NCBI RefSeq assembly: GCF_001746415.1
Contig: NZ_MEHJ01000001.1
Span: 4,773,501 to 4,837,500, forward strand
Reading direction: 5' to 3'
DNA length: 64,000 bases
Origin: Streptomyces agglomeratus
GTDB taxonomy: Bacteria; Actinomycetota; Actinomycetes; Streptomycetales; Streptomycetaceae
The translations under genes and the position numbers were made by a program. Under the pieces are notes generated by a model, which was given only the letters and a program-made list of their open reading frames with translations, was not told where the DNA came from and did not search any database. Positions 21,287 to 34,382 of this stretch are shown one piece after another. The first letter of the stretch is position 1, and every line of letters begins with the position of its first letter.

Positions 21287-22444
21287 TTGGCAGGCTCGCC
21301 TGATTTCGACCTGTACCGCCCGTCCGAAGAGCACGACATGCTCCGTGACGCGGTCCGCTCGCTCGCCGAGGCGAAGATCGCGCCGTACGCCGCGGCGGTC
21401 GACGAGGAGGCCCGCTTCCCGCAGGAGGCCCTGGACGCCCTGGTCGCCAACGACCTCCAGGCCATCCACGTCCCCGAGGCCTACGGCGGCGCGGGCGCCG
21501 ACGCCCTGGCCACCGTCATCGTCATCGAAGAGGTCGCCCGCGCCTGTGCCTCCTCCTCGCTGATCCCGGCGGTCAACAAGCTCGGCTCGCTCCCCGTCAT
21601 CCTCTCGGGCAGCGAAGAGCTGAAGAAGAAGTACATGACGCCGCTCGCGAAGGGCGAGGGCATGTTCTCGTACTGCCTCTCCGAGCCGGACGCGGGTTCC
21701 GACGCGGCGGGCATGAAGACCAAGGCGGTCCGCGACGGCGACTACTGGGTCCTCAACGGCGTGAAGCGGTGGATCACCAACGCGGGCGTCAGCGAGTACT
21801 ACACGGTGATGGCCGTCACCGACCCGACCAAGCGCTCGAAGGGCATCAGCGCCTTCGTCGTCGAGAAGTCGGACGAGGGCGTCTCCTTCGGCGCGCCGGA
21901 GAAGAAGCTCGGCATCAAGGGCTCGCCGACCCGCGAGGTCTACCTCGACAACGTCCGCATCCCCGCCGACCGCATGATCGGCGAGGAGGGCACCGGCTTC
22001 GCCACGGCGATGAAGACCCTGGACCACACCCGCATCACGATCGCGGCCCAGGCGCTCGGCATCGCCCAGGGAGCCCTCGACTACGCCAAGGGCTACGTCC
22101 AGGAGCGCAAGCAGTTCGGCAAGCCGATCGGCGACTTCCAGGGCGTCCAGTTCATGCTCGCCGACATGGCCATGAAGCTGGAGGCCGCCCGTCAGCTGAC
22201 GTACGCGGCCGCCGCCAAGTCCGAGCGCCTCGACGCCGACCTGACGTTCTTCGGCGCCGCGGCCAAGTGCTACGCCTCCGACGCCGCCATGGAGATCACC
22301 ACGGACGCGGTCCAGCTTCTCGGCGGCTACGGCTACACGCGCGACTACCCGGTCGAGCGCATGATGCGCGACGCGAAGATCACCCAGATCTACGAGGGCA
22401 CGAATCAGGTCCAGCGGATCGTCATGGCCCGCAACCTGCCGTAG
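21287..22444 (+). CDS. Acyl-CoA dehydrogenase
   Basis: A 385-residue FAD enzyme of the FadE type. The substrate/FAD loop reads FSYCLSEPDAGSDAAG and WITNAG, the flavin site ERKQFGKPIGDFQGVQ, and the catalytic base is the Glu of QIYEGTNQVQRIVMAR near the C-terminus, the position used by short/medium-chain enzymes. The start is TTG 21287, the only one that gives the normal N-terminus, with GGGGAGTGAG upstream. In mycobacteria fadE25 stands next to purE in the same conserved neighbourhood, so this is probably its counterpart. Substrate chain length cannot be read from sequence. Confidence 0.92.
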   Translation: MAGSPDFDLYRPSEEHDMLRDAVRSLAEAKIAPYAAAVDEEARFPQEALDALVANDLQAIHVPEAYGGAGADALATVIVIEEVARACASSSLIPAVNKLGSLPVILSGSEELKKKYMTPLAKGEGMFSYCLSEPDAGSDAAGMKTKAVRDGDYWVLNGVKRWITNAGVSEYYTVMAVTDPTKRSKGISAFVVEKSDEGVSFGAPEKKLGIKGSPTREVYLDNVRIPADRMIGEEGTGFATAMKTLDHTRITIAAQALGIAQGALDYAKGYVQERKQFGKPIGDFQGVQFMLADMAMKLEAARQLTYAAAAKSERLDADLTFFGAAAKCYASDAAMEITTDAVQLLGGYGYTRDYPVERMMRDAKITQIYEGTNQVQRIVMARNLP

Positions 22445-22465
22445 TGCGCGACGCGCAGGCGAGGG

Positions 22466-22497
22466 AACGCCCCTGCCGGGGATACGGCAGGGGCGTT
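22466..22497. terminator. Bidirectional terminator hairpin
   Basis: A perfect 13-bp inverted repeat (AACGCCCCTGCCG at 22466-22478, complement at 22485-22497, 6-nt loop) lies between the acyl-CoA dehydrogenase and the convergent TerD-family gene. Confidence 0.8.
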
Positions 22498-22507
22498 TCC
22501 GCGTCCG

Positions 22508-23161
22508 TCAGCGGCGCCGCTTCTCCATCGTGGTCCAGGACTCGATGCCGAAGCCGTACGCGTCGTTGATCTGCCGGTGAGGAGCCATCACCGGCCAGCC
22601 GGTGAACCAGCGGACCTCCCGGCGCACCGAGAGTCCGCCGTTGTCCGGGGCGACCAGGGCGACGGCGCAGGCAGTCGACCCCGGGGGCGAGTCGTCGAGC
22701 AGGATGCGGCAGCCGTCGCCGGAAGGCGCCGTGACGGTCGCGACGGCGCCGAGGTCGCGGAAGTCCGCCGCACCCTCGTAGATGTAGACGAAGAACAGCA
22801 GCCGCTTGAAGGCGGCGCGGTGCTCGATGCTGACCCGCAGCGTCTCGCCGTCGGAGGACTCTCCCGTCCGGTCGTCGTGGTCGAGGGCGACGTACGGCGG
22901 TGAGGTGAGCGAGCCGTAGTCGTCCCCCAGGGACTGCACCACCGTCGCGGAGCCGTCCGTGGACGACACCAGGCAGCACAGGTTCAAGTCCGCCCCGGCC
23001 TCCGGCAGCCAGTTCAGGTTCGCCTGGAGCACGCCCCGGCCGGCGATGCGCGCCTGCGGATCGGCCCTGGTGAGCAGGGTTGGCGGTGGCCCGTCGGGGC
23101 GGACCGGATTACGCGGTTCCCGCAGCCGGATCACTCCGCGCGGACGGTTGTCGGTGCTCAT
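22508..23161 (-). CDS. TerD-family (tellurite-resistance-like) protein
   Basis: A 217-residue protein with a TerD-like core. The segment YVALDHDDRTGESSDGETLRV matches the acidic calcium-binding loop of TerD proteins, preceded by LNWLPEAGADLNLCCLV and followed by FFVYIYEGAADFRDLGA. TerD proteins are calcium-binding beta sandwiches linked to membrane-associated stress responses. The first 45 residues are a basic, Pro/Arg-rich extension. Start 23161 has GGGGGG upstream. It is divergent from the membrane/TerY operon with a 188-bp shared promoter region, so it is probably part of the same system. The core fold call is by pattern and good; the extended ends are not typical. Confidence 0.75.
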   Translation of the reverse strand: MSTDNRPRGVIRLREPRNPVRPDGPPPTLLTRADPQARIAGRGVLQANLNWLPEAGADLNLCCLVSSTDGSATVVQSLGDDYGSLTSPPYVALDHDDRTGESSDGETLRVSIEHRAAFKRLLFFVYIYEGAADFRDLGAVATVTAPSGDGCRILLDDSPPGSTACAVALVAPDNGGLSVRREVRWFTGWPVMAPHRQINDAYGFGIESWTTMEKRRR

Positions 23162-23349
23162 CGGGCAGGCCCCCCAGCCGGCAGGTTCCATCGGAACGCG
23201 GGACAGGATTGTATGTCTGGCGTGAGGGGCGTGGGGTACGCTCTGCGCCCACGGCAGCACGTTGCGTGTGTACCGCCGTGAGGGGGCGAAGGCGCTTCGT
23301 GATCGCTGGGGAGCGAGAGGCGCGCGGTCGGCGCCCCCTGGGTTCTCTC

Positions 23350-24630
23350 ATGGGGGTGGGCATGCCCGTAGGGGCTTTGGCGGACCGTCATACGGTCGGC
23401 CGGCAGATCAAGGATCTCGCAGGGGAACCGGGACTCGTCCCCCGGCGGACCGAACTCGCGGCTCTGGCCGACGCGTTGCACTCGACGGACGCGGCCGGGC
23501 TCGACCCGTGGGCCGACCTCGACCTGCTCCACGCCTACGCCAGACCCGAGAGCGTCACCCCGGTGGCCGGAGCCGGGGAGGAACACCGGGCCTGGTCGTG
23601 GCTGGAGGCCGTACTCGGCGCGCTGGTCTTCGTGCCGCTGATGCTGACCTGGTACGGGCTGACCCAGGCGTCCAGCGCCTACGAGGCGCTGACCGGAGCC
23701 GATCCCAAGGCGGCTGCCAGGCCGTTCCTCCAGTTGTGGCAGTCCGGCTTCGAGGGACACCTGACCGGCGCGTTCACCTTCGGTCACGTGGCGATGGGCG
23801 CGACCGTCGCGATCGTGCTGCTGTTCGCGCTCGTACTGGTGCACGGATTCCGGCGGTCCGCCGTGACGCGCCGGGAGGAGCACGCGCAGCGGGAGGCGGA
23901 CCGGCTGATGCGTCGCCTCGTGCCGGTGCTGACCCAGGCACAACTGGTGCTGAACGTGCACCGCATGGCCTCGCCGCAGCGGTTCGCCGCCGAACTCACC
24001 GGCGCCGCGGCCACGCTCAACCGCCTCGGTACCAAGTCGGCCAAGGCGCAGAAGGATCTGTCCGCCGCGGCCGAGGTCGTGGGAGACGCCGTTCAGCAGG
24101 CCGAGCGCCGTCTCGCCGGTATCGACACCTCCGTGCGGCCCCTGGAGGACGCGGCGGGACGCATCGAGGAGGCGGTGCGCGGCAGCGGCAAGGAGATCGA
24201 GGCCGCCGTCAGCGGTAATGGCGTCATGGTGTGCAAGGCGCTGGAAGATGTGCGGAGCACCAGCGGCGACGTACGCGATGTCCTCGACCGGGCCGGTGAC
24301 CGCGTCGAGGACTCGGTCACAACCCTCGCCGCGTCGCAGCGCTCGTTCACCACGGGCATCGAGGTGGCCTCCGACGTCACCGCGCAGGTGCTGGCGCGGC
24401 TCGGTGACGTCACCGAGGAGTCCGCCCGAGGCGCTGCCGAATCGCAGGCCGTCATGCGTCAACTGGCGGAACAGAGCGGCTCGTTGCGCGACCTGGCCGA
24501 GCGGTTCGCCCAGCTCGTGGACGCGCTGCGCGCCGTACCCCTTCCGGCTCCGGAGCCGTCGCGCCGGAACGGCGTGGTGCTGGAGAAGCTGCCGGAGGAC
24601 GCGCCTGCGTCACTGGCGGACACGCGGTGA
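23350..24630 (+). CDS. Two-TM membrane protein with long cytoplasmic coiled coil
   Basis: I do not recognise a named family. From ATG 23350 it has 426 residues; ATG 23362, with GGGGGTGGG just upstream, may be the true start. Two transmembrane helices are evident, about 86-106 (LEAVLGALVFVPLMLTWYGL) and 146-166 (HVAMGATVAIVLLFALVLVH). They are followed by about 250 residues of Ala/Glu/Arg-rich helix with many small repeats (AEVVGDAVQQAERRLAG, IEEAVRGSGKEIEAAV), as in coiled-coil signalling rods. The arrangement recalls motor-stator partners such as ZorA or ExbB but homology is not shown. Its stop overlaps the start of the ExbD/MotB-like gene, which argues for a complex of the two. Confidence 0.7.
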   Translation: MGVGMPVGALADRHTVGRQIKDLAGEPGLVPRRTELAALADALHSTDAAGLDPWADLDLLHAYARPESVTPVAGAGEEHRAWSWLEAVLGALVFVPLMLTWYGLTQASSAYEALTGADPKAAARPFLQLWQSGFEGHLTGAFTFGHVAMGATVAIVLLFALVLVHGFRRSAVTRREEHAQREADRLMRRLVPVLTQAQLVLNVHRMASPQRFAAELTGAAATLNRLGTKSAKAQKDLSAAAEVVGDAVQQAERRLAGIDTSVRPLEDAAGRIEEAVRGSGKEIEAAVSGNGVMVCKALEDVRSTSGDVRDVLDRAGDRVEDSVTTLAASQRSFTTGIEVASDVTAQVLARLGDVTEESARGAAESQAVMRQLAEQSGSLRDLAERFAQLVDALRAVPLPAPEPSRRNGVVLEKLPEDAPASLADTR

Positions 24631-25115
24631 GGGCGCCGCGGTTCAATCCGCTGCACCTGGCCGGCTGGCTCTTCGCGGACATGCTGCTGGTCCTCGCCCT
24701 GGTGGCGATGGGCGACCAGGGCGACCCCCTGGCGGCCGAGGCGGCGGTGAAGCCCTCCGCCTCCGCCTCCGCGAAACCGAAGAGGCCGCCGAAGGCCCCG
24801 AAGCACACGGGTCCCCGCGCGGTGGTCAACAAGCCCGTGAAGGTGTCCATCGACGCCGCCCCGGGCGACAAGCGGCGCATCGAACAGCGGCTGCGCGCGG
24901 TGACCGCGCCGCACAAGGACCGCCGGGCAGCGTTCGTCCTCACCTTCGGACACCATGCCGAGCCGGGACCGGGGGGCGAGTACGCCCACGAGGTCAACTC
25001 CCTGCTGAAGAAGGCGCGTCCGGGCATGTTCGAAGGCGCCACCACGCGCGACTTCTGGAAGGGCGGCACCTCCGCAGGGCACGCCGACATCGAAATTTAC
25101 TTCTACACCTACTGA
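24627..25115 (+). CDS. Small ExbD/MotB-like single-TM protein
   Basis: A 162-residue protein beginning with a cytoplasmic FNPLHLAGW and one transmembrane helix, LFADMLLVLALVAMG (about 15-30). Asp18 occupies the position of the proton-carrying Asp of ExbD, TolR and MotB (consensus PFVDVMLVLL). A Ser/Ala/Lys/Pro linker follows (45-75), then a small exported domain ending AGHADIEIYFYTY. This looks like a shortened OmpA/TolR-type periplasmic domain. GTG start within the upstream stop (GTGA). I infer a two-component membrane module with the coiled-coil protein. The Asp resemblance is seen; function is inference. Confidence 0.6.
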   Translation: MRAPRFNPLHLAGWLFADMLLVLALVAMGDQGDPLAAEAAVKPSASASAKPKRPPKAPKHTGPRAVVNKPVKVSIDAAPGDKRRIEQRLRAVTAPHKDRRAAFVLTFGHHAEPGPGGEYAHEVNSLLKKARPGMFEGATTRDFWKGGTSAGHADIEIYFYTY

Positions 25116-25139
25116 CCGGCACCCCGGAGGTACGAGACC

Positions 25140-25805
25140 GTGCAGATTCTTCCGTTCTACCTGCTCTGTGACGAGTCGGGCTCGATGTCGGGCGACCCGA
25201 TCGAAGCGATCAACGAGGCTCTGCCCGAGCTGCATCACGAGATCAGCACCAACCCGACGGTCGCGGACAAGACGAGGTTCTGTCTGATCGGCTTCTCCAG
25301 CAGCGCCAATGTGCTGCAACCGCTCGTGGACCTGAGCGACATCGACGAGGTGCCGGCCCTGGCGGCCGGCGGGCTCACCTCGTACGGGGACGCGTTCCGT
25401 ACGCTGCTGCGGTGCATCGAGGCGGATGTGGCGGCGCTGAAGGCACAGGGGCACGAGGTCTACCGCCCGGTCGCCTTCTTCCTCTCCGACGGGATTCCCA
25501 CGGACGACGGCTGGGAGCAGGCGCACAAGGAGCTGACCCAGTCCCGCTTCTGCCCCAAGATCATCGCCTTCGGGATCGGTGACGCGGAAGCGGCGACCAT
25601 CGGGCAGGTGGCCAACTTCCGTGCCTTCATCCAGCAGGAGGCCAAAGTGTCACCGGCGCAGGCGCTGCGCGAGTTCGCGTCCAGCCTGACCCGTTCCATC
25701 GTGCGGTCGGCGAGCAGCATCGCCGCCGACGGAGGGTCCGGCTTCTCCCTCGCCGTGGACGAGACCGTGCCCGGCTTCTCGACCGTTTCCCTCGACAAGC
25801 TCTGA
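25140..25805 (+). CDS. TerY-like VWA domain protein
   Basis: A 221-residue von Willebrand A protein of the TerY type. The metal-ion site is complete: DESGSMSG (DxSxS from Asp11), a Thr in GGLTSYGDAF and an Asp in FFLSDGIPTDDGW. VWA proteins form metal-dependent contacts with partners. In TerY-phosphorylation triads TerY is encoded with a PP2C phosphatase and a kinase, and the two genes downstream are exactly these. It follows the ExbD-like gene by 24 bp and precedes the phosphatase by 8 bp. The start is GTG 25140, with GGAGG about 10 nt upstream. Confidence 0.88.
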   Translation: MQILPFYLLCDESGSMSGDPIEAINEALPELHHEISTNPTVADKTRFCLIGFSSSANVLQPLVDLSDIDEVPALAAGGLTSYGDAFRTLLRCIEADVAALKAQGHEVYRPVAFFLSDGIPTDDGWEQAHKELTQSRFCPKIIAFGIGDAEAATIGQVANFRAFIQQEAKVSPAQALREFASSLTRSIVRSASSIAADGGSGFSLAVDETVPGFSTVSLDKL

Positions 25806-25813
25806 GGACGACG

Positions 25814-26953
25814 ATGCAGCAGGAGTGGGTGGACGGAGCCGGGGCCGGGGCGGGAGCCGAGGAGCCCGGCGATCCGTTGCACGAGACCTGGCGGTCGGTC
25901 GAGTCGGTCGTGTCCCCGTCGGCAGCAGCCGCCCTCGACCCGGTGGACCTCGTTCAGGCCCCCGGCTCGGAGCCCAACCCGGCCGACACCACGGGACCGC
26001 CGGTGCCCGACGCCCCGCGTCCGCCGGTGCCCGACGCCCCGCGTCCGCCGGTGCTCGACGCCCCCTGGCACAGCGGGAACAAGCCGCCCATGTATCCGCC
26101 CGTCCCGCAGGGTCTGCCGGCCGCCGGCGGCGACCCGGACGCCGCGGTGCTGCCCGACATCGTCGTCGACGGTGCGCAGTACGGCCCGCTGACCGTACGG
26201 GCCGTTTCGGTGCGGGGCGACTCCCACCGGTATCTCGGCGAACCCCGGCAGGACGCGCTGTGCGTGACCCGGATCGGCGGTCCCGGGGCGGGGGAGATGC
26301 TCCTGCTCGCCGTCGCGGACGGCGTCGGCTCCGCGCTCCGCTCGCACATCGGCTCCAACGAGGCGTGCCGCCTGGCCGCCGCCTACCTGGACCGGGTGGC
26401 GGGCAACCTGTTCACCGCGCTGGAGGCCGGTGACGGTACGGCGTTCGCGGAACTGGCCGACCACGTGGTGGGGCAGATCGCCGTACTGCTCACGGACCGT
26501 GCCGTACGCGCCGGACACGACCCCGGGGCGTACGCCACGACTCTGCGGGTCCTCCTGGTCCCCGTCGACCCGGCCGTGCGCACCCGCGGCTTCCTCGCGG
26601 TCGGAGACGGCGGTACGTCGCTGCTCCGCGACGGCGCGTGGCAGCTGGACATCACCGGCGAGGAGGACGAGGGCTCCGGGATGATCGACACGCGTACGGC
26701 CGCCCTGCCGCTCGCCCGCACCGCCGTGACGCGCCTCGTCGGCCCCGTCCGCCCCGGCGACGTCCTCGTGCTCTGCACCGACGGGCTCTCGACGCCCCTG
26801 GCGGGGGAGCCGCGGATGCGGGAGTTCCTCGGCGCGGCGTGGGGGAGCGGCGCGGTCCCCGGTCCGGCCGACTTCCTCTGGCAGGCGCAGTTCCGGGTCA
26901 AGTCGTACGACGACGACCGGACCGCGGTGGTCCTGTGGGAAGGCGGCGCGTGA
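25814..26953 (+). CDS. PP2C-family protein phosphatase of a TerY-P triad
   Basis: A 379-residue protein. About 120 residues of low-complexity N-terminus include three near-exact copies of PPVPDAPR (24-bp DNA repeat from 25997). The PP2C metal-binding motifs follow: LLLAVADGVGSA, VLCTDGLSTPL and YDDDRTAVVLW, the three Asp-bearing elements of the family. It should remove phosphate from Ser/Thr residues, most simply those placed by the kinase encoded next. The stop overlaps that kinase's GTG start. The N-terminal tail has no recognisable domain and may tether the enzyme to the membrane partners. Confidence 0.87.
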   Translation: MQQEWVDGAGAGAGAEEPGDPLHETWRSVESVVSPSAAAALDPVDLVQAPGSEPNPADTTGPPVPDAPRPPVPDAPRPPVLDAPWHSGNKPPMYPPVPQGLPAAGGDPDAAVLPDIVVDGAQYGPLTVRAVSVRGDSHRYLGEPRQDALCVTRIGGPGAGEMLLLAVADGVGSALRSHIGSNEACRLAAAYLDRVAGNLFTALEAGDGTAFAELADHVVGQIAVLLTDRAVRAGHDPGAYATTLRVLLVPVDPAVRTRGFLAVGDGGTSLLRDGAWQLDITGEEDEGSGMIDTRTAALPLARTAVTRLVGPVRPGDVLVLCTDGLSTPLAGEPRMREFLGAAWGSGAVPGPADFLWQAQFRVKSYDDDRTAVVLWEGGA

Positions 26954-27903
26954 GCGTTCACGACGGTGCCGACATGCCGTACACGTCCCTGAAGCTGCTG
27001 GCCAAGGTGGGCGACGGCGGGCAGGGAGAAGTACACGCGGTCGGCGGTCCCGGCAGGCTGCTCTACAAGGCGTACCGGGAGCCGCACAAGGTCGACGGCG
27101 CCGCACTCGGCGCCCTGGTCGCCCTCCGCCAGGCACTGGCGCCGGCCGACCGTGACCGGCTGGACCGCGAGACGGCGTGGCCGCTGTGCAGGGTCACGGA
27201 CGGGGGCCGGGTCACCGGCTTCCTCATGCACAGGGCTCCCGACGCCATGAGCTGGCAGACGTCGAAGGGGAGCAGCAGGCTCGTCGAGCTGACATACCTG
27301 CTGCACCAGCCGAAGGCCGCCTGGCAGTCGGTCCCGCAGCCGTCCCCGGCGGAGCGGTACACCCTGGCCGTCGTGCTGGTGGAGCTGTTCCAGTGGCTGC
27401 ACGCGATGGGGCTGGTGATCGGGGACGTGTCGCACGCCAACGTGCTGTGGACCCTGCGTCCGGCCCCCGCCGCGTACCTGCTGGACTGCGACGGTGTGCG
27501 GCTCGCGGGGCAGCGGCCGGTGCTCGACCAGGCGGACACCCCCGACTGGCACGACCCCCTCGCCCCGCCGGGGACCGTGTCCGTCGACAGTGACCGCTTC
27601 AAGGCCGCGCTGATGATCGGCCGCGTACTCGCCCAGGACGCCTACGCGACTCCGGGCAGCGCGCTGAAGCTTGTTCCGGGCGTACTGGACGACCGCCGGG
27701 AAGCGGCGGTGTCGCGCCTGTGGGAGCAGGCGGCCGGAGCGTGCGGGAGCCGCCCGGACCTGGGGCAGTGGCGCACCGCCCTGGCCGGCCGCGACACGAT
27801 CAAACTCATCGCGGCCAGGCCCGCGCCGCGTCCCGCCGTCGACCGGTCGAAGTTCGACGGCGACAGGCAGCGCCGACGGGGCACGATCAGCCTGCGGGAC
27901 TGA
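26950..27903 (+). CDS. Protein kinase-like enzyme of a TerY-P triad
   Basis: A 317-residue kinase-fold protein. The glycine loop is VGDGGQGEVHAV, the ATP Lys lies in LLYKAYREP, the catalytic loop reads IGDVSHANVLW (Asp and Asn present), and the metal Asp is in LLDCDGVRL in place of DFG. It belongs to the divergent kinases that accompany TerY and PP2C rather than to the Pkn receptor kinases: no transmembrane helix or PASTA repeats. GTG 26950 overlaps the phosphatase stop. Being last in the operon, it ends 81 bp before a strong hairpin. Activity looks possible because all key residues are present. Confidence 0.85.
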   Translation: MSVHDGADMPYTSLKLLAKVGDGGQGEVHAVGGPGRLLYKAYREPHKVDGAALGALVALRQALAPADRDRLDRETAWPLCRVTDGGRVTGFLMHRAPDAMSWQTSKGSSRLVELTYLLHQPKAAWQSVPQPSPAERYTLAVVLVELFQWLHAMGLVIGDVSHANVLWTLRPAPAAYLLDCDGVRLAGQRPVLDQADTPDWHDPLAPPGTVSVDSDRFKAALMIGRVLAQDAYATPGSALKLVPGVLDDRREAAVSRLWEQAAGACGSRPDLGQWRTALAGRDTIKLIAARPAPRPAVDRSKFDGDRQRRRGTISLRD

Positions 27904-27984
27904 GGCGGAACGGCCTGGGGGTCGGGGCAGTACGGCCCGCCCGGACCGGGGGCGGCACGCCCGGCGGGACCACGGGCAGTACGG

Positions 27985-28022
27985 CGGAGGGGCCCGGACG
28001 GTGATCCGTCCGGGCCCCTCCG
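27985..28022. terminator. Bidirectional terminator hairpin
   Basis: A perfect 17-bp inverted repeat (CGGAGGGGCCCGGACGG at 27985-28001, complement at 28006-28022, 4-nt loop) between the kinase gene and the convergent LCP gene. Confidence 0.85.
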
Positions 28023-28032
28023 TCATGTCCTG

Positions 28033-29289
28033 CTAGTTGCCGGTGACCGTGACCTTCTCGTCGTTCTTGAGCTGCTTCATGAGCTGCTCGACCTTCGCCT
28101 TGTCCCAGACCAGGTTGCTGCCGTTGCTCCCGGAGATCGGCATGTTCATCGACGTACCCTCGCCGCCCGTGACGCCCTTCATCGCGAAGAACATCTGGCC
28201 CAGCGACCACAGGCTCATGTCCTTGTCGACGACGAGCGTGTCGAGGCCGGCGCCCATGGTCGGGTAGAGCTTGAACGGGTTCACGATGGTGCCCGGCGTC
28301 GCCGTCTGGCTCGCCAGCGCCGCCAGGAACTTCTGCTGGTTCTTCGTACGGTCCAGGTCGCTGCCCGCGAAGGCGGAGCGCGTACGGACGAAGGCCAGCG
28401 ACTGCTCGCCGTTCAGCGTCTGCTTGCCGGCCTGGAAGTCCGCGCCCGACTTCTTGTCCTTGAACGCCTTCGGAATGTCCATCTCCACTCCGCCGATCGC
28501 GTCCACGATGTTGGCGAAGCCGGCGAAACCGATCTCGACGTAGTGGTCGATGCGCAGGTTGGTGTTGTGCTCGACCGTGCGGACCAGGAGCTCGGGGCCG
28601 TCCTCGGCGTACGCCGCGTTCAGCTTCACGCGCCGGCCCTGGCCCGGGAACTTCTTGCCGGACTCCGATCCGACGAAGGACGGGATCTCCACGTCGGAGT
28701 CGCGGGGCAGCGAGATGAGGGTCGGGCCGTTGGAGCCGTCGTGCAGGATCATCATCGAGTCGGTCCGCTTGCCCTCGGCCGACCCGGTGTGCAGCTTCTT
28801 CTTGTCGTCGGAGCTCATGCCCTCGCGGCTGTCCGAGCCGACGATCAGGTAGTTCGTGCCGTCACCGGCCTCGGGGCGGTCGATGACCTTCGCCAGGTCG
28901 ACCTCGCGCTTGAGCTTGCCGTCGGCCCAGAAGTACGTACCGATGGAGACGGCGAGGAGCACGACGACCAGCGTCAGTGATCCGACCTTGATCCGGCGTC
29001 TCCAGTCCGGTGCCGGACCCACGCGCGGTCCGCGCGGCGGCCGGCCGCCGCCGCCGTAGACCTGGCCGGTGTTGTATCCGTCACCGTGGGAGCCCTGGCC
29101 GTAGCCGTCGTCGTAACCCTGCGGCTGCGACGGCACCGGGCGGTGCACCGGAGGCACCGGGGCGGCAGGCGGCGGCACCTGGCCGCGCTGGACATGCCTC
29201 ATCACCCGCGCGCCCTCGGGCTGCGTGCCGCCGCTGCCGCGTCCGTGCGGGTCGTTGCGGTCGTTCCATCCGTCCGGCCAGTCGCTCAT
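28033..29289 (-). CDS. LCP (LytR-CpsA-Psr) family ligase, copy 1
   Basis: A 418-residue protein with a cytoplasmic Gly/Pro/Gln-rich N-terminus, one transmembrane helix (about 100-120) and an extracellular LCP domain. Domain marks are NYLIVGSDSR, DSMMILH, LISLPRDSDVEIP with the catalytic-site Arg, KLNAAYAEDGP, and IDHYVEIGFAGFANIVDAIGGV. LCP enzymes move undecaprenyl-linked glycopolymers onto peptidoglycan. It lacks the C-terminal LytR_C domain found in copies 2-4. Start 29289 is an ATG at the beginning of the natural N-terminus. Divergent from a thioesterase gene. Confidence 0.92.
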   Translation of the reverse strand: MSDWPDGWNDRNDPHGRGSGGTQPEGARVMRHVQRGQVPPPAAPVPPVHRPVPSQPQGYDDGYGQGSHGDGYNTGQVYGGGGRPPRGPRVGPAPDWRRRIKVGSLTLVVVLLAVSIGTYFWADGKLKREVDLAKVIDRPEAGDGTNYLIVGSDSREGMSSDDKKKLHTGSAEGKRTDSMMILHDGSNGPTLISLPRDSDVEIPSFVGSESGKKFPGQGRRVKLNAAYAEDGPELLVRTVEHNTNLRIDHYVEIGFAGFANIVDAIGGVEMDIPKAFKDKKSGADFQAGKQTLNGEQSLAFVRTRSAFAGSDLDRTKNQQKFLAALASQTATPGTIVNPFKLYPTMGAGLDTLVVDKDMSLWSLGQMFFAMKGVTGGEGTSMNMPISGSNGSNLVWDKAKVEQLMKQLKNDEKVTVTGN

Positions 29290-29397
29290 GCGGACCAGTG
29301 TGCAGGCTGGGGGTGGGCCGCTTACAGGGTGGGTGGGAAAACGGGGCAGGGCTGTTGCAGAGCTGATGCAATGCGCCCCGCGCATAAGGTGGAGGGC

Positions 29398-29952
29398 ATG
29401 ACAGATCAGCCCCAGCACCCGGAAGAACACATTCCGGGCAAGCCCACCGCGGCTTCCCGCACCACGCTCAGCCACATCATGACGGGCAGCGACACCAACC
29501 TCCTCGGCACGGTGCACGGCGGCGTGATCATGAAGCTGGTGGACGACGCCGCGGGCGCCGTCGCGGGCCGCCACTCCGGCGGACCCGCCGTCACCGCCTC
29601 CATGGACGAGATGGTCTTCCTGGAGCCGGTCAGGGTCGGGGACCTGGTCCATGTGAAGGCCCAGGTCAACTGGACCGGCCGGTCGTCGATGGAGGTCGGC
29701 GTACGCGTCCTGGCCGAGCGGTGGAACGAGTCGACGCCCGCCACCCAGGTCGGCAGCGCCTACCTCGTGTTCGCCGCCGTCGACGCCGACGGCAAGCCCC
29801 GCCGCGTCCCGCCCGTCGTACCCGAGACGGAGCGCGACCGCCGCCGCTACCAGGAGGCGCAGATCCGGCGCACGCACCGCCTCGCGCGGCGCCGCGCGAT
29901 CAAGGAGCTGAGGGACAAGCGCGCGGCCGAGGGACTGGACATGGAGAGCTGA
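29398..29952 (+). CDS. Acyl-CoA thioesterase, hotdog fold
   Basis: A 184-residue single-hotdog thioesterase of the acyl-CoA hydrolase type. The core reads LLGTVHGGVIMKLVDDAAGAVAGRH, with the catalytic Asp in DDAAG, followed by MDEMVFLEPVRVGDLVHVKAQVNWTG. The last 50 residues are very basic (RRRYQEAQIRRTHRLARRRAIKEL), an extension often seen in actinobacterial members. It should hydrolyse medium- or long-chain acyl-CoA in the cytosol. GGAGGG precedes the ATG at a good distance. Divergent from LCP copy 1 and convergent with copy 2. Confidence 0.88.
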   Translation: MTDQPQHPEEHIPGKPTAASRTTLSHIMTGSDTNLLGTVHGGVIMKLVDDAAGAVAGRHSGGPAVTASMDEMVFLEPVRVGDLVHVKAQVNWTGRSSMEVGVRVLAERWNESTPATQVGSAYLVFAAVDADGKPRRVPPVVPETERDRRRYQEAQIRRTHRLARRRAIKELRDKRAAEGLDMES

Positions 29953-30017
29953 TACGGCCTGTCACAGGCAGACGATCGACCTAGGGGCCCGGTGGCCGGT
30001 GGCGGTGACCGTGCCCG

Positions 30018-31445
30018 TCACGGGCAGACCACCTGGTCGCCGGTGACCGTGCCGAACCGGCCCTGGTACGGATCGTCCGCCCGCACCGCCCGCACCCCCT
30101 TGAAGTCCGTGCCCGCCATCACCTTCATGAGCGCCCCCTGCCCGTCCACCGCCCGCAGCTCGCACCCGGGCAGCGCCGCCCGGAGCGACTTCGCCGAGCG
30201 GTCCCAGCGCGGGTCGTACGTGACGAGCGTGCGCCTCACGTCGTGCCGGTCGGCGTCCTCGGGAAGGCGGGTGGTCCGGAAGCCGGTGGAGCGCAGCCCG
30301 TCGTCCACCCGCTTGCCCAGGCCCCGGGTGAGCGTCCCGTTGTAGACCTGTACGGCGATCTGCTGCGGCGGGACGTCGACGAGCGTCGCCGTCTTCTTCC
30401 GCCGCAGCGGGGCGAGCGGCTTGTCCTCGCGCAGGTACTCGAAGAGCTTCCCGGCCTTCGCCTCGTCCCACTTCACGGTCGAGCCGATGCTCGCGACGGC
30501 CGGACCGGCTCCGGCGACCGGTACGGACGTGAACTCGGAGGACGCGGGAGTGAAGCCCCGCATCGCCTGACCGAGGGTGAGCATCTCCTCCGTACCGAAC
30601 CCCTTGTCCGCCCGGACCGAGCCGAGCAGCGTGGACGTCAGCTCCCGGAACTTCACCGGGTTCAGCAGGACGCCGCGGGTACCGGCCTTGGCGATGAAGG
30701 CGGCGAGGAAGCGCTGCTGGCGCTGCATGCGGCCGAAGTCGGAGGCGCCGTCGATGTGCCGCGAGCGTACGTACTGAAGGGCCTGGCCACCGTTGAGCCG
30801 GTGGGTGCCGGCGGGCAGGTCGAGGCCGGTGTAGCCGTCCTTGAGCGGGCGGACGGTGCAGACCTCCACGCCGCCGATCACGTCCACCGTCCGCATGAAG
30901 CTGGTGAAGTCGACCTCCACGTAATGGTCGATCTTCACCTTCGTCATGTGCTCGACGGTCCGTACGGTGAGGCCGGGACCGCCCTCCGCGTACGCCGCGT
31001 TGATCTTCGCGGGGTGCTTGTTGTGGTGCTTGCCCGTGACCTGGTCGGTGTGCTCGGGCACCTCCGCGTAGCTGTCGCGCGGCAGGCTCACGATGCTGGC
31101 GCGCTTCCTGTCGGCGGAGATGTGCACCACCATGATCGTGTCGGTGCAGTGGCACGGTTCGCCGCCCAGCCGGTACTTCCGCTTCTCCTCCCGCGTGATC
31201 CTGTCGCGGCCGTCGGTGCCGACGAGCAGGATGTTCGTGCCGTGACCGGCCGCCGGGCGGTTCTTCATGTCCTTGAACGGATCGACCCGCTCAATGCCGG
31301 TGTCCATCCCCGAGACGACCGCGTGACCGATGCCACCCGCGCACAGCACCAGCACGGAGATCGTGGTGAACAGGCGCATCGACCACCGCGGGCGCTCGTC
31401 CTGCCTCCGACTGCGGCCCTTCTGCGGACGGGGCGACTTGGGCAC
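30018..31445 (-). CDS. LCP family ligase, copy 2, with LytR_C domain
   Basis: A 475-residue protein with a short basic cytoplasmic start, one transmembrane helix (about 24-42), an LCP domain (NILLVGTDGRDR, DTIMVVHISADRK, SIVSLPRDSYAEVP, KINAAYAEGGPGL, IDHYVEVDFTSFMRTVDVIGGVEV) and a C-terminal LytR_C domain (IAVQVYNGTLTRGLG). The start is GTG 31445 with GGAGG 8 nt upstream. It is divergent from a glycosyltransferase gene. Together with copies 1 and 3-5 it forms an unusually dense LCP group; each copy may serve a different wall polymer. Confidence 0.93.
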   Translation of the reverse strand: MPKSPRPQKGRSRRQDERPRWSMRLFTTISVLVLCAGGIGHAVVSGMDTGIERVDPFKDMKNRPAAGHGTNILLVGTDGRDRITREEKRKYRLGGEPCHCTDTIMVVHISADRKRASIVSLPRDSYAEVPEHTDQVTGKHHNKHPAKINAAYAEGGPGLTVRTVEHMTKVKIDHYVEVDFTSFMRTVDVIGGVEVCTVRPLKDGYTGLDLPAGTHRLNGGQALQYVRSRHIDGASDFGRMQRQQRFLAAFIAKAGTRGVLLNPVKFRELTSTLLGSVRADKGFGTEEMLTLGQAMRGFTPASSEFTSVPVAGAGPAVASIGSTVKWDEAKAGKLFEYLREDKPLAPLRRKKTATLVDVPPQQIAVQVYNGTLTRGLGKRVDDGLRSTGFRTTRLPEDADRHDVRRTLVTYDPRWDRSAKSLRAALPGCELRAVDGQGALMKVMAGTDFKGVRAVRADDPYQGRFGTVTGDQVVCP

Positions 31446-31571
31446 GTGGGAAACCTCCGCGAAGGCAAGGGGGGATCAGCAGCAACGTAAGCCCATACGA
31501 TCAACGACCCCGCGCAGCGACGCGGCCGCCGCGCGACCGTGTCCCCCGTTCGCGGTAACGTGACCCCTGAT

Positions 31572-32609
31572 ATGAACGCCACACCCGCAGTCTCCGTGAT
31601 CATGCCGGTCCTCAACGAGGAGCGGCATCTGCGCAACTCGGTCCGCCACATCCTGGAGCAGGATTACGACGGCGAGATGGAGGTGGTGATCGCGATCGGC
31701 CCGTCCTCGGACCGGACCGAGGAGATCGCCGCCGAGCTGGTACGCGAGGATCCCCGCGTCCGCACCGTCCCGAACCCCACCGGGCGCACCCCGGCCGCGC
31801 TGAACGCCGCCATCAAGGCGTCCCGGCACCCCGTCGTGGTGCGGGTCGACGGCCACGGGATGCTCTCGCCGAACTACATCGCGACCGCCGTCCGCCTCCT
31901 GGAGGAGACCGGCGCGCAGAATGTCGGCGGCATCATGCACGCCGAGGGCGAGAACGCCTGGGAGGAAGCGGTCGCGGCCGCCATGACGTCGAAGATCGGC
32001 GTCGGCAACGCGGCGTTCCACACGGGCGGCGAGGCCGCGCCCGCCGAAACCGTGTACCTGGGCGTCTTCCGCCGCGAGGCCCTCGAACAACAGGGCGGCT
32101 ACAACGAGGAGTTCATCCGCGCCCAGGACTGGGAGCTGAACTTCCGGATCCGCGAGGCGGGCGGCCTCATCTGGTTCTCGCCCGAACTCCGCGTCCAGTA
32201 CCGCCCGAGGCCCTCCGTCAAGGCCCTCGCCAAGCAGTACAAGGACTACGGCCGCTGGCGGCACGTCGTCGCCCGCTACCACGCCGGTTCCATCAACCTG
32301 CGCTATCTCGCGCCGCCGACCGCCGTCTGCGCGATCGCCGCGGGCATCGTCGTCGGCGCCGCGCTCACACCGTGGGGCTTCGTCGTCCCGGCCGGCTACC
32401 TGGCCGCGATCGTGGCGGGCTCGGTCCCGGCGGGCAAGGGCCTTTCGCTGAAGGCGCGGGCGCAGATCCCCGTCGCCCTGGGGACCATGCACATGTCGTG
32501 GGGCTTCGGCTTCCTGACCAGCCCGCGCTCGCTCGCGAAGAAGGTCATCGCGAGCCGCCGCCCGGCGGTGCGGACGGCCGGGGCCGAAGAGGCGCGGACC
32601 CAGGCGTAG
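31572..32609 (+). CDS. GT2 glycosyltransferase (succinoglycan ExoA-like)
   Basis: A 345-residue family 2 glycosyltransferase. The N-terminal GT-A fold shows VSVIMPVLNEERHLRNSV, the acidic pair in VVRVDGHGML and a QDWELNFRIREAGG segment. Two hydrophobic helices near 245-290 anchor it to the membrane. The pattern is close to ExoA, which adds glucose to a lipid-linked sugar. Start 31572 is used; no ribosome site is seen, but TAACGT (31556-31561) ends 10 nt upstream, so the mRNA may be leaderless. Flanked by LCP ligases, it probably builds a glycan that they attach to the wall. Confidence 0.88.
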   Translation: MNATPAVSVIMPVLNEERHLRNSVRHILEQDYDGEMEVVIAIGPSSDRTEEIAAELVREDPRVRTVPNPTGRTPAALNAAIKASRHPVVVRVDGHGMLSPNYIATAVRLLEETGAQNVGGIMHAEGENAWEEAVAAAMTSKIGVGNAAFHTGGEAAPAETVYLGVFRREALEQQGGYNEEFIRAQDWELNFRIREAGGLIWFSPELRVQYRPRPSVKALAKQYKDYGRWRHVVARYHAGSINLRYLAPPTAVCAIAAGIVVGAALTPWGFVVPAGYLAAIVAGSVPAGKGLSLKARAQIPVALGTMHMSWGFGFLTSPRSLAKKVIASRRPAVRTAGAEEARTQA

Positions 32610-32618
32610 TACGTACGA

Positions 32619-32665
32619 GACGAAGCCCCGGGCCACGCGGTGTCCGCGCCGCCCGGGGCTTCGTC
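32619..32665. terminator. Bidirectional terminator hairpin
   Basis: A perfect 15-bp inverted repeat (GACGAAGCCCCGGGC at 32619-32633, complement at 32651-32665, 17-nt GC-rich loop) between the glycosyltransferase and the convergent LCP copy 3. Confidence 0.8.
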
Positions 32666-32678
32666 GTCACCGCACCGG

Positions 32679-34382
32679 CTACCAGGTGAAGCCCGGCTGC
32701 ACGTCCATGCATGCCTCGTCGTTGTCGCCCTTGAGGGCGCGGGCCGACTTGAGGGCGTCTTCCTTCGCCTTGCCGTCGTCCTTCGCCGACTTGGGGTACG
32801 TACTGCCCGTACGCCAGTCCGCCCCGACGACCAGCGTGACGCCCGAGACCTCGGTGGACTTCTTCGCCGAACTCAGCGGCAGCCCGAGCGACTTGGCGAC
32901 CGCCTGCGCGTCACCCTCCAGGTCGACGCTCGGGTAGTAGACCGTCGTCCGCTCCTGCGGGCTGCGCTGAATGTCCGCCTTGGCCTCGGTGAAGCCCTTC
33001 TCCACCAGCACGCCCGCGACTTCACGGGCCCGCCCTGTCGCCGCTCCCAGGGCGTCGGTGTACGTGCCGTTCTGCACCATGACGCCGATCTCCGCGTCCG
33101 GGGCGGCCGGGTCCTTGGACTCCTTCGGCTTCTGCTTCTTCGAAGCCTTGCCGTCCAGCGGGGTGTCCTCGCGGATCATCTTGAAGAGCAGCTCCGCCTC
33201 GTCCGGCTTCGGCAGGACCCTGTCGCCCGCGGGCACCGACGGCATGGTCGTCATGGTGATGCGCGACGTCGGGACCTTCTTGAGCTCCTCACCGAGGTCG
33301 TACAGCTTCTTGACGGTGTCGAGCCCCGGGTCGACGGTGAGCGCCCGGGTGGCGGACTCGGCCAGCTTGCGCAGCTTGTTCGGGTCGCTCAGCTTGGTGT
33401 TCTTCTTCAGCTCGCGGACCATCGAGTTCATGTACATGTGCTGGCCGTGCGCACGGGCGAGGTCGGTGCCGTCCTCGAAGCCGTAACGGGTGCGCAGCCA
33501 CTGGAGGGCCTGCTCGCCCTTGATGTAGGTCGTGCCCTCCTCCAGCTTCAGGCCCGAGCCCTCGCCCTTGCTGTTGCGGGAGTGGACGTTGTCGGTGACG
33601 CAGACCGGGACTCCGCCGATGGCGTCCGCCATCGAGACCACACCCGAGAAGTCGATCATCATGAAGTGGTCGATGGTGATGTCGGTCAGCTTGTACCAGG
33701 TGGCGACCGTGCAGCCGGGACCGCCGCGTCCCAGGCTCTCGTTGGTCAGCCTCGGCCTGACGGTCGCCGGATAGGACTCGCCGGTTTCCGGGTCCGTGCA
33801 CTTGGGCATGTTCAGCATGGTGTCGCGCGGCATGCTGATCACCGACATGTTGCTGCGGTCGGCGGAGACGTGCAGGAGCATCTGTACGTCGGCGAGCGGC
33901 GGGCCGTCGAAGGTGCGCTTGGCGCCGCCGAGCCGCTTGTTGGCGTCGGAGTTACGCGCGTCCGAGCCGATGAGCAGGATGTTCAGCGGGGTCTGGCCCG
34001 CCGCGTTGGCCTTGTGACCGGCCATCGGCTTGTCGCCGAGGTTGAGGTCGTCCTTCTTCAGGATGCCGTTGAGGTGGCGGTAGTAGAGGTATCCGGCGCC
34101 GGCCGTGCCGAGTATCAGCAGGGACAGTACGGCGGCGACCCAGCGCAGTACCCGCCGTTTGCCCCGTCTGCCGTGCCGGGAGGCGCTGCCGCGCCGGGAC
34201 GTGCTGCCCGGCCGGCGGGGCCGTGGCACGGGCCCGTCCGGGGCCGGGCGCGCCGGAGCGCGCACCGCGCCGCCCGGTGCTCCGTCCGGCCCGCCGTCGT
34301 GCGGGCTGTCGCTCCCGCCGCCTTCACCTGCGTCCGGAACGCGTCGCCGCGTCCCCTCCCCACGCACGCTGTTCTTCCCCAC
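32679..34382 (-). CDS. LCP family ligase, copy 3, with LytR_C domain
   Basis: A 567-residue protein: a 75-residue Gly/Pro/Arg-rich cytoplasmic tail, a transmembrane helix (about 80-100), an LCP domain (NILLIGSDARNSDANKR, MPRDTMLNMPKC, DHFMMIDFSGVVSMADAIGGVPVC, LQWLRTRYGFEDGTDLAR) and a C-terminal LytR_C domain (IGVMVQNGTYTDALGAATG). The GTG start at 34382 lies 50 bp after the stop of copy 4, so the two are probably one transcript. A cysteine pair in the LCP domain may form a disulfide. The specific polymer is unknown. Confidence 0.92.
   Translation of the reverse strand: MGKNSVRGEGTRRRVPDAGEGGGSDSPHDGGPDGAPGGAVRAPARPAPDGPVPRPRRPGSTSRRGSASRHGRRGKRRVLRWVAAVLSLLILGTAGAGYLYYRHLNGILKKDDLNLGDKPMAGHKANAAGQTPLNILLIGSDARNSDANKRLGGAKRTFDGPPLADVQMLLHVSADRSNMSVISMPRDTMLNMPKCTDPETGESYPATVRPRLTNESLGRGGPGCTVATWYKLTDITIDHFMMIDFSGVVSMADAIGGVPVCVTDNVHSRNSKGEGSGLKLEEGTTYIKGEQALQWLRTRYGFEDGTDLARAHGQHMYMNSMVRELKKNTKLSDPNKLRKLAESATRALTVDPGLDTVKKLYDLGEELKKVPTSRITMTTMPSVPAGDRVLPKPDEAELLFKMIREDTPLDGKASKKQKPKESKDPAAPDAEIGVMVQNGTYTDALGAATGRAREVAGVLVEKGFTEAKADIQRSPQERTTVYYPSVDLEGDAQAVAKSLGLPLSSAKKSTEVSGVTLVVGADWRTGSTYPKSAKDDGKAKEDALKSARALKGDNDEACMDVQPGFTW

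Follow-up and report, generated by a model that had tools for sequence, protein, structure and literature searches.

Gene sets that combine a TerY-type VWA protein, a PP2C phosphatase and a protein kinase have been described as TerY-P triads (Anantharaman 2012; Gao 2020; both cited in PMC11090510). In the Zorya system, defence requires peptidoglycan binding by ZorB, residue D24 of ZorB and the tail of ZorA (passages of PMC11890865). Among the themes reported for the GTPase-centric conflict systems of the GAP1-N2 type are a kinase-PP2C-VWA set, found in actinobacteria, and Hsp70/GrpE (Kaur et al., 2020; passages of PMC7159879). A precedent for anti-phage modules built on a kinase and a phosphatase is KKP, the kinase-kinase-phosphatase prophage module, which differs in having two kinases and whose main text contains no vWA or TerY term (PMC11341870). 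Here we describe a locus of Streptomyces agglomeratus that joins features of several of these systems. The window, by which we mean the whole stretch of 64,000 nucleotides that was analyzed, corresponds to contig C1:4773501-4837500 of genome G000, which measures 9.1 Mb. At positions 22508-27903 it carries six genes, five of which lie on one strand and code for two membrane proteins that we named MemA and MemB in the present analysis, a TerY-like VWA protein, a PP2C-type phosphatase and a kinase. We found that these five genes make up one recurrent unit, to which the sixth, a TerA-like gene read in the opposite direction, is an optional addition. The layout is as follows (aa, amino acids; TM, transmembrane helix; MIDAS, metal ion-dependent adhesion site).

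22508..23161, minus strand: TerA-like gene, divergently oriented, distant member of the TerD superfamily, 217 aa; optional sixth component
23162..23361, no strand: intergenic region between the divergent TerA-like and MemA genes, about 200 bp
23362 (about)..24630, plus strand: MemA, 422 aa; helical domain at the N-terminus, then two TM and a long coiled-coil tail
24627..25115, plus strand: MemB, 162 aa; one TM, linker and predicted OmpA/MotB-like domain
25140..25805, plus strand: VWA (TerY-like), 221 aa; MIDAS motif DxSxS...T...D intact
25814..26953, plus strand: PP2C-type phosphatase, 379 aa; N-terminal extension rich in Pro, Asp motifs of the active site intact
26950..27903, plus strand: divergent protein kinase, 317 aa; K40, GDxS...N and DxDG conserved, no CxxC

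The junctions of the co-directional genes are tight, with 4-bp overlaps between MemA and MemB and between the PP2C and kinase genes, and gaps of 24 bp between MemB and VWA and of 8 bp between VWA and PP2C. This agrees with the open reading frames (ORFs), the close spacing and the divergent TerD-type gene that an earlier note on the window had claimed. The start of MemA was set by the length of a public homologue, P0121 (422 aa). No sigma-70-type promoter consensus was found in the intergenic region between the TerA-like gene and MemA, and no RNA families were found at 22400-28200. Close homologues that carry names are nearly all Streptomyces proteins (among the best 120 of 207, 192 and 180 matches), and relatives are present in S. 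albidoflavus strains.

We searched 293 genomes of the order with profiles of MemB, the VWA protein and the kinase. The MemB profile matched in 23 genomes, 13 of them at a score of at least 240 bits; the VWA profile matched in 50, with 13 above 400 bits and the next at 162; and the kinase profile gave 13 genomes above 500 bits, one partial remnant at 289 bits (in genome G262) and all the rest at 149 bits or less. These searches score part of the first-look candidates of each genome (up to 12, 10 and 7), and misses are possible. The 13 MemB, 13 VWA and 13 kinase genomes are the identical set, the window genome included, and all six genes are present in 12 of the 12 other loci of that set. Long homologue lists had suggested near-universal core genes of Streptomyces, an idea that presence in 13 of 293 genomes rejects. 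A further 80 loci came from a scan of genome contigs, and profile matches were used to sort the 102 entries that have a MemB match, among them the window and duplicates. Group I, to which the window belongs, holds 45 entries, or 38 distinct loci, window included, once identical MemB tails are merged. The order MemA-MemB-VWA-PP2C-kinase on one strand was kept in all 36 uncut distinct loci of this group, two more being cut by contig ends, and the VWA, PP2C and kinase motifs were present in each of the 36. These results demonstrate that the five co-directional genes are one unit. The earlier note had proposed a single six-gene system; the recurrent joining of triad and membrane pair stands, as does the constancy of the five co-directional genes, and the TerD-type gene turned out not to be constant (27 of 38 loci). 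VWA, PP2C and kinase genes of the window's type are not scattered, being found together in 13 of 13 genomes. The membrane genes are less faithful to the triad, and the second outcome that the note had named as refuting is partly seen: more distantly related MemA-MemB pairs are found in clusters of the Hsp70 and DO-GTPase kinds as well, and other TerY-P triads have no such pair.

Two single copies are broken. The VWA gene lies in two pieces in L037, a locus first filed in group II through this split and then moved to group I, and MemB is split in L064, which suggests ongoing loss or sequencing error. In G262 (L025:9039-9771) the C-terminal parts of the TerA-like and kinase genes abut, and the stretch has no match to MemA, MemB, VWA or PP2C; it is a loss remnant of the six-gene unit.

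With regard to the triad, the VWA protein matches its Pfam family with an E-value of 4e-8 and the phosphatase matches PP2C_2 at 1e-25, while for the kinase Pfam gives nothing at E<=1, and only weak matches come from NCBIfam (LanL, E 7e-5) and PADLOC (MkoA, E 5.5e-4). A comparison of the kinase with the PDB returned only T-cell receptor chains (E 0.15), which we rejected as meaningless. All 13 aligned kinase relatives keep the Lys, GDxS..N and DxDG motifs unchanged, and the VWA MIDAS and the PP2C Asp motifs are likewise invariant in the 13 aligned proteins of each, so the active sites described as intact in the earlier note are indeed conserved. The window shares with known TerY-P triads the same three enzyme and adaptor types, adjacent and in order, an intact VWA MIDAS, and a VWA match to a plasmid protein annotated TerY (31% identity over 72%). 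It differs from them in that its 317-aa kinase has no CxxC, and with it no zinc ribbon of the CoCoNuT type at the C-terminus, in that two membrane genes belong to the operon, and in that VWA proteins of the window's type score above 400 bits when other VWA matches of the order reach at most 162. PADLOC recognized no family at E<=0.1 in the VWA and PP2C proteins, the presence of TerY-P models in its library being unchecked. On the strength of the motifs and the gene order, we assign the three genes to a TerY-P triad, with a TerY-like, MIDAS-bearing VWA gene next to PP2C and kinase genes. Carriage on plasmids was considered and rejected, as among 72,556 plasmid records MemB had no match and the VWA protein only relatives below 60%.

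MemB has a TM at about residues 11-29 that holds a conserved Asp18 (GWLFAD), followed at about residues 61-162 by a predicted OmpA/MotB-like periplasmic fold that resembles peptidoglycan-binding domains. The Asp, which sits in the TM where MotB has its own, is unchanged in all 17 MemB sequences aligned, drawn from three system types; the alignment takes in 17 of the 23 MemB-profile matches, the window among them, and leaves out the two weakest (G027 and G292) and four close ones. The loci of the contig scan, whose search pattern LAGWLFAD fixes the Asp by construction, were excluded from this evidence. MemB has no Pfam match at E<=1 and its sequence has no PDB match at E<=10; the label "MotB-like" in the earlier note is upheld by the predicted fold and not by a Pfam match. 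As modelled, MemB combines a ZorB-like TM Asp with an OmpA-like domain of the peptidoglycan-binding type.

MemA has two TM helices, at about residues 83-101 and 142-160 according to hydropathy and an AlphaFold2 model, both of which are consistent with its previous description as a two-TM coiled-coil protein. Its N-terminal part is a helical domain, and its long coiled-coil tail is predicted to be cytoplasmic. Pfam gave only matches below the cut-off, mostly within the coiled coil, and the MemA profile found only coiled-coil matches in the PDB, the best being a designed helical bundle (E 0.0015). We considered MemA as a MotA, ExbB or ZorA protein and set this aside, as Pfam, PADLOC, hhalign, Foldseek and VIA showed no kinship, although these negatives do not amount to proof. 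Particularly, the MotA/ExbB family PF01618 matched neither MemA nor any other protein of G000; hhalign detected no relation to 12 MotA and 2 ExbB-like proteins; PADLOC ZorA2 reached only E 0.004 on MemA, within the coiled coil, and no ZorA was found at 1e-5 in the MemA of locus L086; the VIA fold comparison had no ExbB, MotA or ZorA among the 50 matches listed; and Foldseek placed one ExbB chain at rank 23 (E 2.1). ZorA profiles run over 296 actinobacterial genomes gave no match anywhere, controls included, and so do not bear on MemA. With MemA lacking detectable kinship to MotA, ExbB or ZorA, the "motor" of the earlier note is a proposal only. A role as a chemoreceptor was also rejected, no chemoreceptor Pfam family being matched; public records label many MemA homologues "methyl-accepting chemotaxis protein", which we take to be an effect of the coiled coil.

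The TerA-like protein matches Pfam TerD at E 0.34, below the cut-off, and a TerD search of its genome at E<=10, which yields 14 proteins, does not pick it up. When it was compared by hhalign with 11 of those 14 proteins, the E-value was 1.1e-4 with a probability of 56%, against 0.15-0.78 for three unrelated control profiles, and the alignment runs along the NLNW, DLDL and DDRTG..DGE stretches. In public records, many of its homologues bear the name "tellurium resistance protein", and some TerA. This profile-level kinship points to a very divergent member of the TerD superfamily; its profile had no PDB match at E<=1. The gene is present in 27 of the 38 distinct loci of group I. A search reaching up to 2.5 kb beyond each MemA ORF start found no convincing remnant in the 3-kb stretch around that start in the 11 others (best E 0.016, in L051), and the gene is missing from all 10 five-gene loci of group II. 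We therefore reject TerD/TerA as a constant partner, and "TerD as the effector", as the earlier note had it, cannot be the general mechanism.

Group II comprises 10 loci that have the five core genes and no TerA-like gene, 8 of them in the common order. The hosts are Virgisporangium, Spongiactinospora, Actinomadura, Sphaerisporangium, Microbispora, Glycomyces and a metagenome-assembled genome (MAG) labelled Thermoanaerobacterales. The second PP2C Asp motif reads GDS in 7 of the 10, a pattern search detecting no such motif in the other 3. Of the 46 complete loci of groups I and II, all but two share the common order: in L104 (L104:9923-15114, Glycomyces buryatensis) MemB precedes MemA, and the MAG L092 is ordered differently. 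Eight of the 10 loci also carry BrxD and BrxHI (L086:3661-17001, L072, L073, L078, L089, L091, L092 and L095, the last a MAG titled Microbispora), and in seven of these, all from Streptosporangiales, BrxD directly follows the kinase gene, co-directional with it and mostly overlapping by 4 bp. In L086, PADLOC identified BrxD (E 7e-175) and BrxHI (E 0), as well as a match of kinase residues 385-485 to the PglZ C-terminus (E 6.6e-21), and a PglZ-like C-terminal extension of the kinase ORF is found in 9 loci, L086 included. The flanks of L086 hold genes for a DrmD-like SNF2 protein and a type IIG/MmeI-like methyltransferase. In two Herbidospora loci (L107 and L109) MemA, MemB, kinase, BrxD and BrxHI are present, with no VWA or PP2C match. 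The Streptosporangiales relatives thus share BrxD, BrxHI and a PglZ-like piece of the kinase with type 2 BREX/Pgl (passages of PMC12839542), but here VWA, PP2C, kinase and the membrane pair stand before BrxD/BrxHI, and the window copy has neither of these two genes. Of the BREX core (BrxC/PglY, PglX, PglZ, PglW) only the PglZ C-terminal piece was seen in group II stretches of up to about 20 kb, which were not searched systematically. In seven of the eight BrxD/BrxHI loci, where the two genes come right behind a kinase with the PglZ-like piece, we apparently have a BREX-like system unlike the types in the passages of the published survey, whose main text has no mention of TerY, MotA, MotB, Zorya or transmembrane (2026, PMC12839542). 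In Microbispora, an ADP-ribosylglycohydrolase gene lies close upstream of the BrxD/BrxHI-type operon (L089:6361-7386, Pfam E 2e-74; L091:6472-7503).

Group III (27 entries with 24 distinct MemB tails, after L067, with a weak 32-bit kinase match, was taken out) joins MemA-MemB to a third, large gene and, in stretches long enough to show it, to a kinase-PP2C-VWA set in inverted orientation; some entries have no separate PP2C match, and the arrangement often comes after GrpE, Hsp70 and Hsp70-TPR genes. In L017 (L017:79-15583) and similar loci, GrpE, Hsp70, Hsp70-TPR, MemA, MemB and an unannotated 721-aa protein, which in L017 has no Pfam match at E<=0.01, face the inverted kinase-PP2C-VWA set. 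Group IV (11 entries, 10 distinct; L003 has no MemA match) has a DO-GTPase2-like gene, mostly together with an EAD1-CHAT gene and a kinase. In L024 of this group, DO-GTPase2 is matched at E 5.5e-6 and 26.7 bits, just under the 27-bit cut-off, the EAD1-CHAT protein gives E 6e-7 and 2e-10, and a kinase is present. Outside Actinobacteria, an Anaerolineae MAG (L106:2872-16959) has MemA and MemB in what by eye is a cluster of PP2C, kinases and VWA, together with a zinc-ribbon GTPase-like gene and a long GAP1-like gene; its MemA apparently has extra C-terminal TM helices. We consider it possible, although we would put it somewhat below an even chance, that MemA-MemB is a new family of wall-anchored, stator-like transducers, which in actinobacteria and beyond would be the shared front end of four or more immune architectures: TerA with TerY-P, TerY-P with BrxD/BrxHI, Hsp70/GrpE with an inverted TerY-P, and DO-GTPase2/EAD1-CHAT.

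In the window, the six genes lie between a FadE gene that ends at 22444 and an LCP-type (LytR-CpsA-Psr) gene whose stop lies at 28033. The two flanking genes are as follows.

21287..22444, plus strand: outside the unit, presumably an acyl-CoA dehydrogenase (FadE), judging from its type of sequence; marker of a conserved chromosomal neighbourhood
28033..29280, minus strand: outside the unit, presumably of the LytR-CpsA-Psr family by its type of sequence

By eye, three LytR-CpsA-Psr-type genes, a glycosyltransferase gene and a thioesterase gene adjoin the unit at 28033-34382, a set that is kept even without the unit as far as the analyzed stretches reach. FadE and the LCP/thioesterase genes stay neighbours in 5 of 5 genomes that lack the unit, about 0.3-1.3 kb apart in four and separated by about 3.9 kb of other DNA in L113; in G262, FadE lies on another contig. 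Beyond the six genes and the flanks of the FadE neighbourhood, nothing recurs in more than four of the 30 loci whose genes were compared by clustering. Restriction or defence genes were found within about 10 kb in 8 of the 20 group I loci that have no FadE or UDP-glucose dehydrogenase gene in their stretch, in none of the 18 that have one, the window copy among them, and in none of 40 control stretches (Fisher p 5e-5 for 8/20 against 0/40). The test used 15 marker proteins, those taken from a locus being left out for that locus, and the controls, each 20 kb long, were taken from 13 genomes within the genus, spaced by hand and not at random. Examples are L009 with McrBC and EVE, L053 with BrxD/BrxHI, and L058 with DrmD-like and GmrSD/Schlafen genes; the McrC-like protein of L009 was not recognized by PADLOC at E<=1e-10. 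In L016 (L016:351-4462) the six-gene unit lies beside DndA, DndB and DndC, a locus that went uncounted, its markers being its own. These counts, together with the BrxD/BrxHI co-operons of the relatives, support the link to defence islands raised in the earlier note. Nevertheless, the enrichment is suggestive rather than clean because the markers were chosen after the neighbourhoods had been viewed, a bias that leaving out a locus's own markers lessens and does not remove; moreover, flanking proteins for annotation were picked by eye, and in one set of 10 most were not clear defence genes.

We judge it probable, though by no means settled, that the five-gene core is a wall-anchored, Zorya-like transducer that feeds a TerY-P phospho-switch, probably for anti-phage defence. 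It would begin with MemB, predicted from fold and sequence to join a membrane helix with a conserved Asp to an OmpA/MotB-type domain. The two TM helices of MemA may surround MemB, with the MemA tail carrying the signal inward, by analogy with the supposed role of the ZorA tail. A disturbance of the wall, such as phage entry or lysis, would alter the state of the putative MemA-MemB complex, possibly with ion flow through the Asp, and the MemA tail would then act on the switch, in which kinase and phosphatase would set a threshold and the VWA protein would serve as adaptor. Phosphorylation may finally release a local effector that depends on the lineage: BrxD/BrxHI in Streptosporangiales and, in Streptomyces, perhaps TerA as one output, neighbouring restriction genes or unlinked targets. 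The complex, its topology, the direction of the signal and the phage trigger are inferred, and action as an ion motor and a TerA effector are proposals. The likeness to Zorya is that the B partner has a TM helix with a key Asp and an OmpA-like wall domain, that the A partner has a long cytoplasmic tail, and that partners are swappable; the differences are that MemA has two TM helices and no ZorA kinship and that the predicted output is a kinase-phosphatase switch (passages of PMC11890865). Neither ZorC/ZorD nor ZorE is among the six window proteins according to Pfam and PADLOC.

Whether ions flow at all is evenly balanced in our view against a passive role, in which MemA-MemB would be a wall-anchored scaffold or tension sensor and the Asp structural. 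The lack of any A-subunit homology and the mere two TM helices of MemA speak for passivity, but the Asp is kept throughout the 17 sequences of three system types, and the stator ion channel is also formed by two A-subunit helices, A-TM3 and A-TM4 (passages of PMC12505986). Falling just short of that balance is the idea that the six-gene form derives by reduction from the GAP1-N2 systems, with MemA-MemB as their TM part. The pair occurs with DO-GTPase2, EAD1-CHAT and a kinase in L024, with similar sets in most other group IV loci; many group III loci have GrpE/Hsp70 along with the inverted kinase-PP2C-VWA set, both of which are themes of the GAP1-N2 systems; and those systems resemble ours in having membrane-proximal parts, MemA-MemB relatives lying in such clusters (passages of PMC7159879). 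The six-gene form differs from them in having no GTPase, no DO-GTPase or GAP1 Pfam family being found among the six window proteins, and the VWA proteins of group I are only 27-28% identical to those of the Hsp70 type where matched. This idea concerns origin rather than a different function, and it is compatible with the transducer proposed above. Less likely, in our opinion, is that the unit serves envelope- or metal-stress signalling of the Ter type and not immunity, MemA-MemB sensing stress on the wall and the switch controlling TerA and wall metabolism. That would suit the 18 of 38 loci, the window among them, that have FadE or UDP-glucose dehydrogenase and no defence marker, the LCP-gene neighbourhood that also persists in genomes lacking the unit, and the TerD-like TerA of 27 loci; against it stand the patchy presence in 13 of 293 genomes, the loss remnant in G262, the more than one kind of site, the BrxD/BrxHI co-operons and the placement in defence islands. 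Finally, a fortuitous meeting of a TerY-P triad with a membrane operon, for which the only point is that other TerY-P triads exist without MemA-MemB (all six loci of that kind that match VWA, PP2C and kinase together, L026-L030 and L032; L031 has a kinase match only), is refuted by the co-occurrence in 13 of 13 genomes, the order kept in 36 of 36 loci, the 4-bp overlaps and the several insertion sites, and we give it almost no weight.

In the literature we found no description of the six-gene form, of the five-gene form with BrxD/BrxHI, or of a MotB/OmpA-like pair with TerY-P in passages of PMC7159879, PMC11090510, PMC12505986, PMC11890865, PMC12458937, PMC12839542 and PMC11341870, and an earlier mention in subscription papers, supplements or figures is possible. 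The main text of PMC7159879 contains neither MotA nor flagellar, and "Zor" only inside an author name. The TerY-P kind is already known; its membrane-linked form is apparently new, and there is a case for a new transducer family.

If the proposed mechanism is true, it joins wall-anchored sensing of the Zorya type, TerY-P phospho-switches and BREX-type effectors, which have so far been separate. We know of no established trigger for TerY-P triads, and the unit would offer them a concrete signal path, from the wall through the membrane pair to the kinase and phosphatase, in small operons that are testable in easy Streptomyces hosts. It would also mean that one membrane module is shared among several conflict systems of multicellular bacteria and, should the common front end hold, that MemA-MemB would be a Gram-positive counterpart of the ZorAB of Zorya that feeds protein phosphorylation.

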